In this document: positions 6,546 through 45,597 of the stretch, piece by piece
Layout of the letters: each line of letters starts with the position of its first letter
How positions within the stretch are numbered: position 1 is the stretch's first letter
Assembly (NCBI RefSeq): GCF_017745095.1
Contig: NZ_JAGHZZ010000002.1
Coordinates: forward strand, 124,001 to 188,000
Length of the DNA stretch: 64,000 nucleotides
Reading direction: 5' to 3'
Source of the DNA: Sporocytophaga sp.
GTDB taxonomy: Bacteria; Bacteroidota; Bacteroidia; Cytophagales; Cytophagaceae
Translations under genes and position numbers: made by a program
Notes under the pieces: generated by a model
Told to the model about the DNA's origin: nothing
What the model saw: only the letters and a program-made list of their open reading frames with translations
The model's database searches: none

Positions 6546-7605
6546 TTTATATCAGGAAATAACTCAAAAATATCCCAAAGATCTGGGATATTTTTTTCCC
6601 GCAGAATGGGCTAAACATTCAGCTACCTGGCTGAGCTGGCCTCATAAAGAAGCATCTTGGCCGGGAAAAATAGAATCTATCTATCCGGTATACTGCACCT
6701 TTATTAAAGAAGTCGCCAAGGGAGAAGTTGTAAACATCAATGTAAATGATGAAGCAATGAAGAAAAAAGCAGAAGCTTGCCTTCAGGCAGTAGGCGCTGA
6801 CTTTTCGAATATCCGCTTTTTCATACAGCCCACAAATGATGCTTGGTGCAGAGACCATGGCCCTGCTTTTCTTGTAAACCCTAAGGCTGACATAAAAAAG
6901 GTTATTGTTGATTGGGGCTATAATGCGTGGGGGGGCAAATATCCTCCATTTGACAAGGATGATGTAATTCCGACTTTAATTGGGAAACATTATAATTTAC
7001 CGGTTTTCAATCCTGGTATTGTAATGGAAGGAGGCTCTGTCGAGTTCAACGGACAAGGAACGGTACTTACAACTACGGCTTGTTTGCTTAACGAAAATAG
7101 AAACCCTCACCTTTCTCAAGCAGAAATCGAAAATTTCCTTGTTAGATACTACGGGATAGAACAAATTCTATGGCTTAATGATGGGATCGTCGGAGATGAT
7201 ACTGACGGACATATTGATGATATAACTCGCTTTGTAAATTCAGACACCGTAGTAACTGTTGTAGAAGAAAATAAACAGGATGACAATTACGAGTTATTAC
7301 AAGAGAATCTTAAAGATCTCAAAAAAATGAGATTGCTGAACGGCAAACAACTAAATATAGTTGAACTACCAATGCCTGCTCCTGTGATTTTCGAAGATCA
7401 AAGACTTCCTGCGTCGTATGCTAATTTTTACATTGCAAATGATGTTGTTACAGTGCCGGTTTTCAATGACAAAAATGATCAGAAAGCACTTGATATATTA
7501 ACAAAGGCATTCCCTGACAGAAGAGTCATAGGATTGAACAGTACAGATATCATCTGGGGACTAGGAAGCTTCCACTGTTTGAGCCAGCAGGAACCATTAG
7601 TATAA
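6514..7605 (+). CDS. aguA: Agmatine deiminase
   Basis: 363 residues, usual for the peptidyl-arginine-deiminase-like family. Diagnostic motifs are present in order: DAWCRDHGP, DWGYNAWGGKYPP, VMEGGSVEFNG, GDDTDGHIDDITRF and the nucleophile C355 in GLGSFHCLSQQ. It hydrolyses agmatine to N-carbamoylputrescine and ammonia, the substrate of the overlapping aguB product. The ATG at 6514 lies inside aguB in another frame, implying coupling. No arginine decarboxylase is seen in the window. Confidence 0.96.
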   Translation: MSKLQEDSLTNLYQEITQKYPKDLGYFFPAEWAKHSATWLSWPHKEASWPGKIESIYPVYCTFIKEVAKGEVVNINVNDEAMKKKAEACLQAVGADFSNIRFFIQPTNDAWCRDHGPAFLVNPKADIKKVIVDWGYNAWGGKYPPFDKDDVIPTLIGKHYNLPVFNPGIVMEGGSVEFNGQGTVLTTTACLLNENRNPHLSQAEIENFLVRYYGIEQILWLNDGIVGDDTDGHIDDITRFVNSDTVVTVVEENKQDDNYELLQENLKDLKKMRLLNGKQLNIVELPMPAPVIFEDQRLPASYANFYIANDVVTVPVFNDKNDQKALDILTKAFPDRRVIGLNSTDIIWGLGSFHCLSQQEPLV

Positions 7606-22649: not shown

Positions 22650-24365
22650 CTAGGTACTACCTTCTGGCATTTCCATCTTTACAGTGGGAGCCTCAGTAAT
22701 CATGTGTTCTACTGACATACCTGCAGGAACCATTGGATAAACATTATCGTCCTTTACCACTTCAGCATGAATCAGGCATGGCCCTTCATTATAATCAAAC
22801 GCTTCTTTTAAAACTGCGGTAACTTCAGAAGGCTTGCTTATGTGAAATCCTTTTACTCCATAAGCTTCAGCAAGCTTTACAAAATCAGGATTTACAACCA
22901 TGTCTACACCACTGTATCTTGAATCAAGGAAAAATTCCTGCCATTGACGAACCATTCCAAGGTATTTATTATCAATTACCAAAATCTTAACTGGCAACTT
23001 ATGAATAGCAGCAGTCGAAAGCTCTGCAAGTGTCATCTGAAATCCACCATCACCAACTATAGCAAGAACTTTATGATCAGGTTTACCTAACTGTGCACCT
23101 ATTGCGGCTGGAAACCCAAAACCCATTGTACCGGCTCCTCCTGAAGATAGCCATTGGTTGGGAGTGTCTGTAAGGTAATATTGAGCTGCCCACATCTGGT
23201 GCTGTCCAACATCAGTAGAAACAATAGCTTTGCCTTCGGAAACTTTATAAGCTTCTTCAATTACATATTGGGCTCTTAAAGGCTCATCTTTGGAGTAAGT
23301 GAAAGGAAAGTCCTTTTTGTATTGATTTAACTTATTCAACCATTTATCAGTATCAACCTTTTGTACCAAAGGAATAAGCATCTTTAACACTTCCTTTGCA
23401 TCGCCAATTGCATATGCATCGGGAGTAACTATTTTCCCTATTTCTGCAGGATCAATATCTATATGGATTTTCTTGGCATTCGGACAAAACTTCTTGGGAT
23501 TTCCATTTATCCTGTCATCCCATCTGCTGCCTATAGACATGATAAGATCACACTCCAGCATTGCTTTGTTGGAATATACTGTCCCATACATTCCTACCAT
23601 TCCAAGAGAAAGCTCATGCGTTTCAGGAAAAGCGCCCTTTCCTAATAAGGTTGTTGTTACAGGAGCATTAAGTTTTTCTGCTAATTGCCTGACCTCTGCA
23701 TCTGCTTTAGCAATCAAAGCACCGTGACCAACCAACAACAAAGGCTTTTTAGATTTAAGAAAAAGATCGGCAATTGCTTCTACTGAATTCTGATCAGGCT
23801 TTGAAGGCACTTTGTAACCTGGTAATTCAATGTTTTCTTTAATCTGCCCTTCAAAAACTGCAGAAGTAATATCTTTCGGAAGATCTAACAATACTGGGCC
23901 TGGTCTTCCTGAGTTTGTTATATAAAATGCTTCTTTTACTATCCTAGGAATATCAGATGTTCTTTTAACAAGGTAATTATGTTTCACTGCAGGCATTGAT
24001 AACCCGAACACATCCGCTTCCTGAAAAGCGTCCATTCCAAGTAAACTTGTTATTGTCTGCCCGGTAAGGACAATCATTGGAACCGAATCCATCTGAGCAG
24101 TCATGATACCAGTAATGGTATTAGTAGCGCCAGGACCACTTGTGACAAGCACCACACCAGGTTTGCCGGTCGCTCTTGCATAGCCATCAGCCATATGCGT
24201 TGCTCCTTGTTCATGCCTGGTTAATATGAGTTTTATTTTAGAATCATATAAAGCATCAAAGATCGGAATAGCAGCCCCGCCTGAATATCCAAAAACATAT
24301 TCCACTCCCTCTTTTTCAAGGCAATCAACTAGCATTTGGGCACCATTCTTTTTTACTTTGTCCAT
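22650..24365 (-). CDS. ilvB: Acetolactate synthase large subunit
   Basis: 571 residues. Thiamine-diphosphate enzyme: [14 protein letters not shown], catalytic Glu in [23 protein letters not shown]-type central FAD domain, and the Mg/ThDP motif from [16 protein letters not shown] to NKYLGM. Condenses pyruvate to acetolactate (or with 2-oxobutyrate) in valine, leucine and isoleucine synthesis. No ilvC or ilvD is next to it. No leader peptide is seen upstream, unlike the aminotransferase at 26220. Confidence 0.96.
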
Positions 24366-24637
24366 GTGTATGATTTTTTATCAGATAAACAATCTTATAA
24401 CTGTCACAAATATATTGTCTGTTTTTGTCCGCATTTTTTTTATTTCAATTTTAATACGTTTCCCAAAAAACACAATAATAAAATAATCAACTCATTATCA
24501 ATAAACTAAAAAAATATTTCTACGTATTTAAACTTTTAACACATAATATAGAGTTTTCACAATAACTCTACAGTAAATCCATTTTTTTAAACTAGATTTA
24601 CACTATATTTCAGAGGATTAATTAAAAAATAACTACG

Positions 24638-26206
24638 GTGGCCAGAATAAAATCTAGAAGTCTCTACGAGCTTGTAAAATCCATGAGCAAGAATGAAAAA
24701 AGATATTTCAAGCTCTTATATGGAGGATCCGGGGATGGAGAAGACAAAAAAATGCTGATCCTTTTCGACTATATGAATAAGCAGAAGGAATTTGATGAGG
24801 ACTCTATTCCGGATAAGCTACCAAGCCTCAAAACTGAGCAGCTTTCAAACATGAAAGCATACCTTTATGACAAATTGCTTCAGGCTATACGATTATTTAA
24901 CGCTCCAAAAATTCTTGATCTTCAGATAAGGGAACAAATTGATTACGCTCAGCTGCTCTTTTCAAGAAGGCTTTATACTCAAGGAATGAATTCCCTGAAA
25001 AAAGCACGAAAAATGGCCCTGGTTCACGACAACCTGGAATTGCAATTGGAGATCATTAAACTTGAGAAAAGCGTACTCATGCAGACAATTGATCACGATA
25101 CAGTGGACAAAGTTGACAGGATTATAGAAGAGGCTAGAACGATAAATAAGAGAATTAATAACATTAATACCTTCTCTAACCTTTCAATTAAACTTAATTC
25201 TTTCTATACTAAGATCGGATATATCAGAGGTGAAGCGGACTTCCTGAGGGTTAAAGAATTTTTCAATTCTAATATCCCTGATTTTACTGAAGAAGAGTTA
25301 TCCATCTCGGAAAAACTGAATCTTTATAAGCTTTATGTGGGCTATTATTTATTTATACAGGATTTCAGAAACGGTTATGAGTATGCTTTGAAACTGGTTA
25401 AGCTTTTTGACACACACGAGGAACTTAAAGAAACAAGCACAGAGCAGTACATTAAAAGTCTTAACAACCTGCTCATCGCACAGTACAAGCTAGACATGTA
25501 TAACGACTTTGTTGAAACAAATAAAATTCTTCATGCAATTGCAGCAGATTACAACCAGACACAAAATGAAAGCATAAGAATCAGGCTTCTTAAGTATTAC
25601 TACATCCATGAAATAAACAAATACTTTATCACTGGCGACTTCACTAAAGGTGTTGACGTTTTGATGAAAAGTCCGGATACCAAGATTTACGAACTTCTGG
25701 AAGTAGTAGACAAGCACTCTGAGTTGATCATCAACTACAAGTTATCTTGTCTGTATTTTGGGGCAAGTGATTTTCACGGAGCATTGAAATGGCTGAACAG
25801 AATTATTAATATTCCTGATGGCGACATAAGAGAAGACCTTCATTGTTTTGCAAGGATACTAAACCTCATCTGTCACTATGAGCTTGGGAACTATGATGTG
25901 ATCAAATATTATATCATATCCACCTATCGATTCTTACTTAAAAAAGAAGATTTACATCTCTTCCAGAAATTCATTCTCAAATTCCTAAAAGACCTGAATC
26001 AAAACACCAGAGACAAAGAACTCTACGAACGATTTGTACGCCTTAAATCCCAGTTAATTCCGTTGGTGAACAGCACGTACGAAAAGCGAGCATTCATATA
26101 CTTTGATATCATCTCCTGGCTAGAGAGTAAAATTGAAAAAAGACTTATTCAGGATGTTATTCAGGAAAAAGTTTCTTTAAAGTACAAGTCAGACAAGGCA
26201 TCATAA
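24638..26206 (+). CDS. Large helical protein of unknown function
   Basis: 522 residues; start GTG at 24638 (VARIKSRSLYELVKSMSKNE). Soluble, almost entirely helical, with TPR-like helix pairs (YAQLLFSRRLYTQGMNSLKK, SCLYFGASDFHGALKWLNRI). The N-terminal SMSKNEKRYFKLLYG is distinctive and looks conserved in character. It may be a cytoplasmic scaffold. Function not assignable. Convergent with the aminotransferase over a shared hairpin. Confidence 0.8.
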   Translation: MARIKSRSLYELVKSMSKNEKRYFKLLYGGSGDGEDKKMLILFDYMNKQKEFDEDSIPDKLPSLKTEQLSNMKAYLYDKLLQAIRLFNAPKILDLQIREQIDYAQLLFSRRLYTQGMNSLKKARKMALVHDNLELQLEIIKLEKSVLMQTIDHDTVDKVDRIIEEARTINKRINNINTFSNLSIKLNSFYTKIGYIRGEADFLRVKEFFNSNIPDFTEEELSISEKLNLYKLYVGYYLFIQDFRNGYEYALKLVKLFDTHEELKETSTEQYIKSLNNLLIAQYKLDMYNDFVETNKILHAIAADYNQTQNESIRIRLLKYYYIHEINKYFITGDFTKGVDVLMKSPDTKIYELLEVVDKHSELIINYKLSCLYFGASDFHGALKWLNRIINIPDGDIREDLHCFARILNLICHYELGNYDVIKYYIISTYRFLLKKEDLHLFQKFILKFLKDLNQNTRDKELYERFVRLKSQLIPLVNSTYEKRAFIYFDIISWLESKIEKRLIQDVIQEKVSLKYKSDKAS

Positions 26207-26210
26207 AAAG

Positions 26211-26234
26211 AAGAAAGGATCAACATCCTTTCTT
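26211..26234. terminator. Hairpin between convergent genes
   Basis: A 10-bp perfect stem (26211-26220 with 26225-26234, aagaaaggat/atcctttctt) with a 4-nt loop, located immediately after the helical protein gene and overlapping the aminotransferase stop. Probably a shared terminator. Confidence 0.7.
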
Positions 26235-27425
26235 CCTGCATTTATCAATAGCCATTCCGATTTTAACAATACCAAGAAGGATTTCTTCTTCTGAAGCATT
26301 AGAGAAATTAAGCCTCATAGCGTTTTCCTTTTTTATGCTTGTGCAGAACTCAGCCCCCGGAACAAATAATACTCCTGCTTTAATTGACTCTTCAAGTATA
26401 TCTTTAACAGGATATTCATCGGGCAATTTAACCCACATAAACATCCCTCCTTCTGGCTGAGACACTTCAGCTGTATTTGGGAAAAACTCCAGTATAAATG
26501 ATCTCATTAGATCACATCTTTTACCATACTCTTTATGAAGTAGTTCCAGATGATCTTCGATTCCATTTTTATGGAGAAATTCTGATACTATCATTTGAGA
26601 AAGCATGTTGGTATGCAAATCACTTGCCTGCTTAGCAAGCACCAGCTTGTTTATAATTTCCTTATTTGCAATGATCCAACCCAGTCTCAAACCCGGAGAA
26701 ATCATTTTTGAAAATGATCCAAGATGAATAGTTCTTCTTCTATTTAATGTCAGTAAGCCCGGAAGTGCTTTACCTTTGAATCTTATATCACCATATGGAT
26801 CATCTTCCACAAAAAGAAGCTTCTTTTCATCCAAAAGGTGGGCTAGCTTTATCCTTGTCTCTAATGAGTATGTAATCCCTGTTGGATTCTGAAAATTAGG
26901 AACCCCATAAATAAACTTACCTTTGATCTTGATAGTTTTTTCCTTAAGATCTTTAACATCTATACCTTGAGAAGTCAATGAGATCGGTACAAACTCAGGC
27001 TGATAAGCAGAGAATGACTGAATAGCGCCTAGATAACCGGGATTTTCCATAAAGATCTGATCGCCTTTATTAATAAATATTTTAGCTATAAGATCCAATC
27101 CTTGCTGAGAACCGCTTGTTATCAATATTTCATCTGTTGAAACGTCAATACCACGTTTCGTCCTATACCATTTAACTATCCACTCTTTCAATGGAAGATA
27201 CCCTTCTGTAACATTGTATTGAAGCGCTTTGGCTCCATCCTCTTTTATAACTTTATTGGAGATCTCCTGCAAAGCATTAATTGGAAAAAATCCTGCATTC
27301 GGCAAGCCACCTGCAAAAGAGATAAGGTCCTTTGAAGATGCTACTTTCAGAATCTCTCTGATAAAGGATACAGGAATGGAATTTGTCCGTTCCGAAAACT
27401 CATAAAAATCTGTTTCAGTTTTCAT
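26220..27425 (-). CDS. PLP aminotransferase, LysN/MocR-like class I, probably branched-chain amino acids
   Basis: 401 residues, fold-type I. Features: ISFAGGLPNAGFFP (substrate-binding N-terminus), ITSGSQQGLDLIAK, NFQNPTGITYS, VEDDPYGDIRF and PLP lysine K240 in HLGSFSKMISPGLRLGW; C-terminal Arg in NAMRLNFSNAS. The family (2-aminoadipate/aromatic/branched-chain transaminases) has broad specificity. What decides the role here is the context: two Val/Leu/Ala-rich leader peptides with terminators precede it, pointing to control by charged tRNAs of the valine group and thus to valine/leucine/isoleucine or alanine transamination. That inference is mine. Confidence 0.85.
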   Translation of the reverse strand: MKTETDFYEFSERTNSIPVSFIREILKVASSKDLISFAGGLPNAGFFPINALQEISNKVIKEDGAKALQYNVTEGYLPLKEWIVKWYRTKRGIDVSTDEILITSGSQQGLDLIAKIFINKGDQIFMENPGYLGAIQSFSAYQPEFVPISLTSQGIDVKDLKEKTIKIKGKFIYGVPNFQNPTGITYSLETRIKLAHLLDEKKLLFVEDDPYGDIRFKGKALPGLLTLNRRRTIHLGSFSKMISPGLRLGWIIANKEIINKLVLAKQASDLHTNMLSQMIVSEFLHKNGIEDHLELLHKEYGKRCDLMRSFILEFFPNTAEVSQPEGGMFMWVKLPDEYPVKDILEESIKAGVLFVPGAEFCTSIKKENAMRLNFSNASEEEILLGIVKIGMAIDKCRKKGC

Positions 27426-27464
27426 AATATGTAAATGTTTGATTTTCTTTTGGATTAAATAAAA

Positions 27465-27490
27465 AAGCCCCGAATGTGAGTCCGGGGCTT
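27465..27490 (-). terminator. Attenuator terminator 2 (gene-proximal)
   Basis: Stem 27465-27472 with 27483-27490 (aagccccg/cggggctt on plus), 10-nt loop; the minus-strand RNA then runs into six U. It lies 40 bp upstream of the aminotransferase ATG and 30 bp after leader peptide 2, so it would terminate before the gene by default. Confidence 0.85.
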
Positions 27491-27520
27491 CATGTATGTT
27501 AATTATATTAAATGCATGCT

Positions 27521-27613
27521 CTACCCGGGGGGATTATCCACAAGGACTGCCACTGACGCGACCACGGCCAGAACCGCTATGTATGAGCTATTACTTTTAT
27601 ATAGTGAATTCAT
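27521..27613 (-). CDS. Leader peptide 2 of tandem attenuator (30 residues)
   Basis: ATG at 27613, TAG at 27521. The core residues 13-25 are AVLAVVASVAVLV, followed by DNPPG; 12 of these 13 codons are Ala, Val or Leu. This is the composition of ilv leader peptides in enterobacteria, where ribosome stalling at uncharged tRNA-Val/Leu prevents termination. The GC-rich end (ccccccggg) can pair weakly with the 5' arm region of terminator 2, but I find no long clean antiterminator for this copy. Confidence 0.75.
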   Translation of the reverse strand: MNSLYKSNSSYIAVLAVVASVAVLVDNPPG

Positions 27614-27641
27614 TTTTTTTATAAAACGGTAAAAAACAAAA

Positions 27642-27667
27642 AAGCCCCGAACTTAGGTCCGGGGCTT
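27642..27667 (-). terminator. Attenuator terminator 1 (promoter-proximal)
   Basis: Stem 27642-27649 with 27660-27667 (aagccccg/cggggctt on plus), 10-nt loop, then UUUU-G-UUUUUU on the minus-strand RNA. The arms are identical in sequence to terminator 2. The loop plus 3' flank, aggtccgg at 27655-27662, is perfectly complementary to ccggacct at 27700-27707 inside leader 1, giving the competing antiterminator. Confidence 0.88.
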
Positions 27668-27690
27668 CATCCTTATATTGATACAATGGA

Positions 27691-27756
27691 TTACTTTCTC
27701 CGGACCTTAGGCCTGGCTGCCACGACTAGTGCAACGACAGAGAAAGTATTTTTCAT
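27691..27756 (-). CDS. Leader peptide 1 of tandem attenuator (21 residues)
   Basis: ATG at 27756, TAA at 27691-27693. Core VVALVVAA occupies residues 7-14 (codons gtc gtt gca cta gtc gtg gca gcc). A 9-bp perfect pause hairpin can form between tactttctc (27692-27700) and gagaaagta (27740-27748), that is, between codons 3-6 and the last codons. The antiterminator arm 27700-27707 lies just inside it. This is the classical 1:2, 2:3, 3:4 layout of amino-acid attenuators. Confidence 0.8.
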   Translation of the reverse strand: MKNTFSVVALVVAARPKVRRK

Positions 27757-27781
27757 TGATTGTTTCTAATAGTATATTTAG

Positions 27782-27789
27782 CAAAAATA
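27782..27789 (-). promoter_or_regulatory. Candidate -7 box for the attenuated transcript
   Basis: On the minus strand this reads TATTTTTG, a match to the Bacteroidota TAnnTTTG element, about 25 bp before the leader 1 ATG. I see no good TTG at the -33 spacing, so support is partial. Confidence 0.45.
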
Positions 27790-45197: not shown

Positions 45198-45591
45198 GGG
45201 GCCGACCGGATTTGACAGGTTGAGTAATGACGTGTATAAGCATGCAGGCTCATGGGATGAGAGCCTTGAAAGATAGTTCCGAACAATATCTGGCGAAGAA
45301 TCTTACGCCATGGCTGCTTAATCTGACTGAATGTTAGATTAGCTCATCCTGATATTAGATTATCAGGAAGCCATCACTCCTCAGTTCTTTCGTTCCGCGG
45401 GAACTGAATACGGAGTGTCGAACAGTGGAACTAGTCAGAGTGATGTTGTTAAGCTTTGGCGAAATCTAAACAACTAAGGTAAAATTTGGCTGCTGCCTGC
45501 CTGGTTTTACCCGACAATTAAAGTCAGCTAAGCATGTAGAAGGCTCGATTATTAGCTTCTCTGGACCAGGGTTCGACTCCCTGCGGCTCCA
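45198..45591 (+). ncRNA. ssrA: tmRNA (single-piece)
   Basis: The 5' ggggccgaccgg and 3' end gttcgactccctgcggctcca form the tRNA-Ala-like acceptor (ggggcc with ggctcc) and the T-arm. CCA is not encoded. The tag reading frame is 45292-45321: GGC GAA GAA TCT TAC GCC ATG GCT GCT TAA, giving GEESYAMAA, an ending in AMAA/ALAA that is typical of Bacteroidota tags. It rescues stalled ribosomes together with SmpB. An 18-kb element is integrated into the 3' end but leaves the RNA sequence complete. Confidence 0.97.
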
Positions 45592-45592
45592 C
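45577..45592 (+). repeat. Attachment site attL (16-bp direct repeat)
   Basis: The sequence ctccctgcggctccac, in the T-arm/acceptor stem of tmRNA, is identical to 63537-63552. The repeats mark the recombination core of an element inserted at the 3' end of ssrA. Confidence 0.93.
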
Positions 45593-45597
45593 TCCTT

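Follow-up and report, generated by a model that had tools for sequence, protein, structure and literature searches.

An aminotransferase gene of Sporocytophaga sp. is preceded by two short open reading frames (ORFs), each of which is followed by an intrinsic terminator. The question raised by this locus is whether its leader works as two attenuators in series and, if it does, to which amino acids it responds. The locus was explored in a 64,000-nucleotide stretch of DNA (the window), which is part of a genome of 6.6 Mb, and in the genomes of relatives. The ilv operons of enterobacteria, with the details of their leaders, are the familiar case of leader-peptide attenuation, and an earlier note on this DNA had applied the same logic to the present gene. 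We propose that the leader very probably comprises two ribosome-mediated attenuators in series, both of which would read the charging of tRNA-Val and, secondarily, that of tRNA-Ala; the proposal is drawn from sequence comparison and modelled folding.

Layout of the leader

The leader lies on the minus strand between a promoter motif and the ATG of the aminotransferase gene, with ORF1, T1, ORF2 and T2 in this order. Its features are as follows.

27782..27789, minus strand: predicted -7 promoter motif TATTTTTG (TAnnTTTG, Bacteroidota-type), an exact match 25 nt 5' of ORF1
27691..27756, minus strand: leader ORF1, peptide MKNTFSVVALVVAARPKVRRK and stop codon, with a Val/Ala core; 62 of 66 positions invariant among four congeners
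27740..27748, minus strand: strand 1 of the 1:2 (pause) hairpin of gate 1, TACTTTCTC, exact complement of 27692-27700 over 9 bp
27692..27700, minus strand: strand 2 of the same hairpin, GAGAAAGTA, at the stop codon, exact complement of 27740-27748
27700..27707, minus strand: antiterminator strand of gate 1, AGGTCCGG, perfect 8-bp pairing with 27655-27662
27655..27662, minus strand: CCGGACCT, the 5' arm of T1, common to antiterminator and terminator, pairing exact
27631..27668, minus strand: intrinsic terminator T1 (hairpin and U-run), hairpin -19.0 kcal/mol
27521..27613, minus strand: leader ORF2, peptide MNSLYKSNSSYIAVLAVVASVAVLVDNPPG and stop codon; congener indels (6 and 3 nt) keep the frame
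27524..27528, minus strand: candidate antiterminator strand of gate 2, CCGGG, weak, 5 bp; best pairing in congener G002
27457..27491, minus strand: intrinsic terminator T2, hairpin -16.1 kcal/mol
26220..27425, minus strand: the presumably regulated gene, a class I aminotransferase of 401 aa related to LysN and to the archaeal PH0207-type enzyme

The two minus-strand ORFs and the terminators behind them are present as the earlier note had read them, including the identity of the T1 and T2 arms (AAGCCCCGGA/TTCGGGGCTT). The arms are alike in the window's genus but not in other genera, so identical arms are no general feature of these leaders. In gate 1 (ORF1 with T1), the pause hairpin of 9 bp and the antiterminator of 8 bp that had been described both pair exactly. 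For gate 2 of the window (ORF2 with T2), no antiterminator longer than 5 bp was found. Elsewhere in the window, at 45198-45594 on the plus strand, lies a tmRNA gene (Rfam RF00023).

The elements of the window were compared with chance expectation. An ATG-initiated ORF of 10-45 codons with eight Val, Ala or Leu in eight residues is present in the real region and was found in none of 2,000 dinucleotide-preserving shuffles of 27461-27789. A terminator scan over 3.5 kb returned 7 sites against 2.2 expected in shuffles, T1 and T2 being the richest in G-C pairs. Viewed in isolation, the antiterminator of gate 1 does not exceed chance expectation: when the 75 nt upstream were shuffled, 32 of 500 sequences paired as well, and the corresponding figure for the gate 2 antiterminator of the window was 233 of 500. 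When all gates were compared with shuffles of their upstream 75 nt, 8 of 21 reached 25 or fewer of 500, neither window gate among them. The finding stands above chance because it is conserved in 11 further genomes.

The leader in related genomes

Orthologues of the aminotransferase (E <= 1e-60) were found in 13 of 19 genomes of the family. Two gates precede the gene in nine of them, from four genera (g1 with four genomes, g3 with one, g10 with one and g8 with three), and a single gate precedes it in three genomes of one genus (g5), which gives 21 gates in 12 genomes in total. The g5 gate occupies the position of gate 2 and resembles gate 2 by eye. No leader was seen upstream of the remaining orthologue (G009/L020, genus g7). 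In a Sporocytophaga MAG (G003; Cytophagaceae, Bacteroidota) the enzyme is 91% identical to that of the window; records L006 and L011 are the same G003 record and were counted once. A strict terminator scan recovered 17 of the 21 gates, and the other four (gate 1 of G005, both gates of G014 and gate 2 of G017), which have an irregular stem or a longer loop, were added by reading and folding. The terminators of all gates have U-runs and range from -9.5 to -20.2 kcal/mol.

Among the four congeners, ORF2 is invariant at 61 of 93 positions, compared with 62 of 66 in ORF1. The congener indels in ORF2 (6 and 3 nt) preserve the frame, and those in spacers and loops measure 8, 10, 4, 3, 2 and 1 nt. In the draft genome G005, the Val/Ala frame of gate 1 (VLVCAVATAHKVRYI) is without an in-frame ATG, GTG or TTG. 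This gate (L012) retains its antiterminator and terminator despite the missing start codon, which may reflect decay or an error in the draft.

Outside the family, 48 of 395 genomes were matched by the search, the window's own included, and 16 of the 29 listed loci were read by eye, three of them also being scanned for terminators. No such leader was seen in these 16 loci, which comprise three relatives at 46-48% identity and 13 more distant ones. The earlier note had taken relatives that lack the leader as evidence against its reading; the leader is present before 12 of the 13 family orthologues and is missing before L020 and the three outside relatives. In the tree, whose inner forks are weak, genera with two gates are interspersed with rows of one gate or none, and the tree neither establishes nor rules out a single origin. 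A further terminator-like hairpin and a short ORF (MTTILFYVASAKHAVLFKSRM) were observed in G018 (L019) about 342-307 nt before the aminotransferase gene, 5' of its single gate; the hairpin is perhaps merely the end of the upstream gene.

We take TAnnTTTG to be the -7 promoter consensus of Bacteroidota. In 8 of 12 genomes (g1, g10 and g8), this motif was found no more than 60 nt 5' of gate 1 or of a lone gate, at 4 to 25 nt before ORF1; the same distance of 60 nt did not contain it in G005 or the three g5 genomes. Given the short spacing, gate 1 of g8 would be nearly leaderless; most translation in Bacteroidota starts without Shine-Dalgarno pairing. None of the nine gaps between T1 and ORF2 (18-38 nt) contains the motif. 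Its place before gate 1 and its absence between the gates support the reading of the earlier note, leader-peptide attenuation with two gates in series. A TATACC-ATTT-like (TATACC/ACCATTT) stretch recurs 3' of T1 in several genera. It may be a weak promoter, an initiation context or a trace of duplication, and, since near-matches of this kind lie in the gaps, a weak second promoter may exist there.

Arm pairing, ribosome position and leader codons

The pairing between cognate arms was examined by permuting arms among 15 representatives of the 21 gates, in which gates of one genus are not independent. The antiterminator energies of the 15 gates sum to -209.1 with their own arms against -173.2 (sd 9.3) with permuted arms, and only 3 of 20,000 permutations were as low. 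With nine gates, one per genus and gate, 53 of 20,000 permutations were as good. Gate 1 alone (six gates) gave 62 of 20,000, and gate 2 alone (nine gates) gave 2,591 of 20,000, which is not significant. For the 1:2 stem, none of 20,000 permutations was as good in the pooled set, 509 were for gate 1 alone and 35 for gate 2 alone. The arms thus diverge between genera, yet within the pooled set cognate arms pair. The gate 1 1:2 stems of three g8 genomes illustrate such covariation, as their sequences differ and the pairing holds in each.

Individual gates were also compared with foreign arms. The gate 1 antiterminator of the window is better with its own arm than with any of 17 arms of other classes, and in its 1:2 stem 2 of 17 foreign partners were as good. 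For the gate 2 antiterminator of the window, 6 of 17 foreign arms were as good, and for the three g8 gate 2 antiterminators it was 11 to 15 of 18. The gate 1 antiterminator of G017 (g8) is no better with its own arm than with foreign arms, and in both gates of G005 the 1:2 stem performs poorly, 18 and 19 of 20 foreign partners being as good. Together, the permutations and shuffles make the evidence for pairing good for the set, moderate for gate 1 of the window and absent for its gate 2. In gate 1 of the window, the 1:2 stem and the antiterminator strand overlap by one base only, and the two structures are therefore hardly exclusive.

The effect of ribosome position was modelled by placing a ribosome with a 13-nt footprint at each codon and folding the RNA 3' of it up to the terminator loop. 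While the modelled ribosome stands on or before the core, the 5' arm of the terminator is captured upstream. With the ribosome at the stop codon, arm capture is at least 0.3 below its maximum in 19 of 21 gates; it is still 0.49 in gate 1 of the window and 0.05 in gate 2, and in gate 1 of G012 a ribosome at the stop codon changes nothing. Folding of the untranslated RNA predicts termination in 4 of 21 gates only. As a boundary we took the last codon at which, by prediction, stalling of the ribosome would still permit antitermination; it could be set in 20 of 21 gates, with gate 1 of G012 left out. In the ten codons up to this boundary, Val accounts for 76 of 197 codons against 23 of 290 elsewhere (p=2e-16) and Ala for 50 of 197 against 17 of 290 (p=1e-9), although this test is not independent of the similar distance of the cores from the stop codon. 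In a reduced set of eight gates, one per genus and class, the values are 29/77 against 11/112 for Val (p=8e-6) and 21/77 against 9/112 for Ala (p=5e-4). Changing the footprint to 11 or 15 nt leaves the total of Val, Ala and Leu enriched. Leu by itself is not enriched up to the boundary (24/197 against 26/290, p=0.29). Depletion of Ile is confined to the full set (2/197 against 22/290, p=9e-4; 1/77 against 7/112, p=0.14, in the eight gates). Of the three tRNAs named in the earlier note as the signal, those for Val and Ala are thus upheld by their enrichment at the predicted stall sites, and that for Leu is not.

The leader codons are biased as well. In 17 gates from three genera, GTC makes up 45 of 86 Val codons against 6.3 expected, and GTC and GTG together 71 against 19.9; GCA and GCG make up 44 of 57 Ala codons against 31.2 expected. 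The background for these expectations was the long ORFs in the stretches of the three genera rather than whole genomes. One tRNA-Val(GAC) gene and two tRNA-Val(TAC) genes were found in the window's genome. This list is incomplete, since tRNA-Ala(TGC), the reader of GCA and GCG, is absent from it. Codon bias in leaders is known; the available part of one study attributes it to the selective charging of isoacceptors and not to rarity alone (PMC1183508). In the present leader, GTC would be the more starvation-sensitive Val codon.

We propose the following mechanism. One promoter would start the transcript just 5' of ORF1. With Val (or Ala) in ample supply, the ribosome translating the leader would reach its stop codon and cover the antiterminator strand, allowing the terminator to form. 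When the charged tRNA is scarce, it would stall within the core, where the rare codons GTC and GTG prevail, and leave the antiterminator strand free to capture the 5' arm of the terminator, so that RNA polymerase could read through. The polymerase would then face the same test at ORF2 and T2 before entering the aminotransferase gene. As both gates must be passed, read-through would be approximately the product of two probabilities, with low leak and a steeper response.

Signal, enzyme and relation to known systems

The enzyme is a PF00155 aminotransferase whose closest PDB matches are the PH0207-type enzyme and T. thermophilus LysN: residues 10-393 align with 1x0m (E 3e-95), 3aov (E 4e-95) and LysN 2egy (E 1e-82). 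The earlier description as LysN/MocR-like is apt in its first half, the relation to LysN extending over the full length, and in its second half for the aminotransferase domain only. The PdxR match covers positions 91-444 at 249 bits against a cut-off of 320 and is without the N-terminal DNA-binding part. A MocR transcription factor was rejected on these grounds, as there is no N-terminal winged-helix DNA-binding domain and the PdxR match is below cut-off. The enzyme was likewise rejected as IlvE, because it belongs to PF00155 and not to Aminotran_4 (PF01063). A separate gene of the window's genome passes the IlvE model TIGR01123 with 369 bits against a cut-off of 250, and PF01063 genes occur in all 19 family genomes, two of them in 18. 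Alanine dehydrogenase over cut-off and other class I aminotransferases are also encoded in the window's genome. The enzyme therefore need not be the sole source of Val or Ala.

As Val and Ala codons stand together in the leader, the gene may encode a transaminase that connects these two amino acids, such as the one that catalyses the valine-pyruvate transaminase reaction. Our inference is that the enzyme produces Val and Ala or converts them into each other, a valine-pyruvate type transaminase being one example, and the leader codons would then point to Val and Ala as its substrate pair. More tentatively, and with somewhat more doubt than belief, we suggest the fuller picture of homotypic tandem attenuation as a conserved steep, low-leak device that reads Val and Ala, interconverted by a valine-pyruvate type transaminase, through the rare GTC codon matched by the single-copy tRNA-Val(GAC) of the window's genome.

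It is unlikely, though still worth weighing, that the leader senses Val, Leu and Ile generally, as that of enterobacterial ilvGMEDA does, and that the enzyme is a branched-chain aminotransferase. The cores are Val-rich with some Leu, LysN-type enzymes can be broad, and an acetolactate synthase is encoded 1.9 kb away from the aminotransferase gene. However, the predicted stall sites are enriched in Ala but not in Leu and hold few Ile codons; a gene above the IlvE cut-off exists elsewhere in the genome; and no leader was seen by eye before the neighbouring acetolactate synthase gene (24340-24700). The branched-chain role that the earlier note had drawn from the leader is thus supported only in part: the lack of Leu enrichment, the rarity of Ile and the separate IlvE mean that a general, ilv-like role is not implied. 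The acetolactate synthase gene (large subunit; 22650-24365 of the window, minus strand) is a second one, the other copy being in the leu/ilv operon, and no small-subunit gene was evident beside it in the ORF lists.

On another reading, regulation would fall to the downstream gate alone, gate 1 being a leaky or decaying terminator that a duplication left behind. The three g5 genomes manage with one gate, gate 2-like and at the gate 2 position, and gate 1 of G005 is without a start codon. In the window's genus, however, gate 1 is more conserved than gate 2 and its antiterminator is the stronger of the two, and gate 1 arms pair cognately in the permutations given above, which makes regulation by gate 2 alone quite improbable. 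A metabolite or protein that binds the leader directly in the manner of a riboswitch, with the ORFs incidental, would account for the alternative RNA pairings. Against this, no cis-regulatory Rfam family was found in the leader at gathering score (the best amino-acid leader was Thr_leader, 22.5 bits against 55), and both codons and frame are under selection; we regard such binding as very improbable. Scarcely credible is a role of the ORFs as self-acting hydrophobic peptides (a small toxin or membrane peptide) between ordinary gene ends, for while short hydrophobic peptides between terminators can look similar, the same gene lies downstream in five genera, cognate arms pair in the pooled set, rare codons are favoured and the core fits the predicted stall site.

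The proposed pair of Val/Ala attenuators resembles several known systems. Classical attenuators, of which Vitreschak and co-workers reportedly made the classical comparative survey, come singly to our knowledge. The enterobacterial attenuators (ilvBN, ilvGMEDA, leu, his and trp) share with the present leader, as far as the available part of the source describes them, an ORF with regulatory codons, the 1:2, 2:3 and 3:4 pairings, an intrinsic terminator and leader codon bias (PMC1183508). In contrast to them, the leader described here has two complete gates before one gene, combines Val and Ala codons, follows a Bacteroidota promoter motif and has a single transaminase gene as its target. The mgtCBR leader of Salmonella likewise has two tandem ORFs, mgtM and mgtP, each affecting transcription into the coding region; in the part of the paper available, their gates are described as sensing different signals (ATP and proline) independently and additively through stem-loops unlike intrinsic terminators, and the authors call the system a singular example (PMC3641672). 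The present gates share one codon signature, both being Val/Ala-rich, and have intrinsic terminators, and a tandem of the mgtCBR type was therefore rejected. In tandem homologous riboswitches, two like switches also stand in series and, according to the accessible text, a steeper, 'digital' response is expected (PMC9481103), although the sensor in the present case would be a translating ribosome and not an aptamer. The rimP leader of some Gammaproteobacteria is reported to carry tandem terminators, the added one lying 5' of the other and accompanied by a potential antiterminator; unlike here, a leader peptide is not described in the portion of that report available (PMC2965389).

Within Bacteroidota, partial texts mention clues for leader-peptide attenuation before amino-acid operons of Flavobacterium psychrophilum (PMC9723704) and a long 5' UTR at BT_4401 of Bacteroides thetaiotaomicron that contains several putative short ORFs (PMC7366714). 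In those same texts, neither description contains tandem gates with terminators or a transaminase leader (PMC9723704, PMC7366714). Among the matches listed in the open-licence literature, the titles and abstract beginnings contain no description of tandem amino-acid leader attenuators in Bacteroidota. Leader-peptide clues in this phylum, the tandem rimP terminator and mgtCBR were already known; what is new is that two like gates stand in series and that this pair is conserved in four genera. If our reading is correct, bacteria stack ribosome sensors as they stack riboswitches. Two gates should give these soil bacteria a sharper starvation response than one, and the pair would be a simple system for asking whether gating in series sharpens that response. 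The locus also adds a worked example of attenuation in Bacteroidota.

A leuA...leuB-ilvD-ilvB operon in the same genome (ilvD identified by family search, the other names by eye) has its own leader with Leu codons. The leader codons therefore differ with the gene controlled, codon-specific attenuation is used elsewhere in the genus, and richness in Val and Ala, as seen in the transaminase leader, is not a general habit. The Leu leader peptide, MFKSFNILFKTLLLLKVKFSVG and stop codon, occurs in G000 and G002, with one Leu fewer in G001 and a different leader in G005. It was not seen by eye before leuA in G014 or G013, and the stretch taken from G003 missed the gene; a Leu leader as a family-wide habit was rejected accordingly. 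On contig C11 of G000 (L100, 6574-6694), the ORF lies at 6574-6642 and a terminator hairpin of -19.5 kcal/mol at 6659-6694, with further cases in L102, L148 and L104. The number of Leu codons in the leu/ilv leader differs in frame between congeners.
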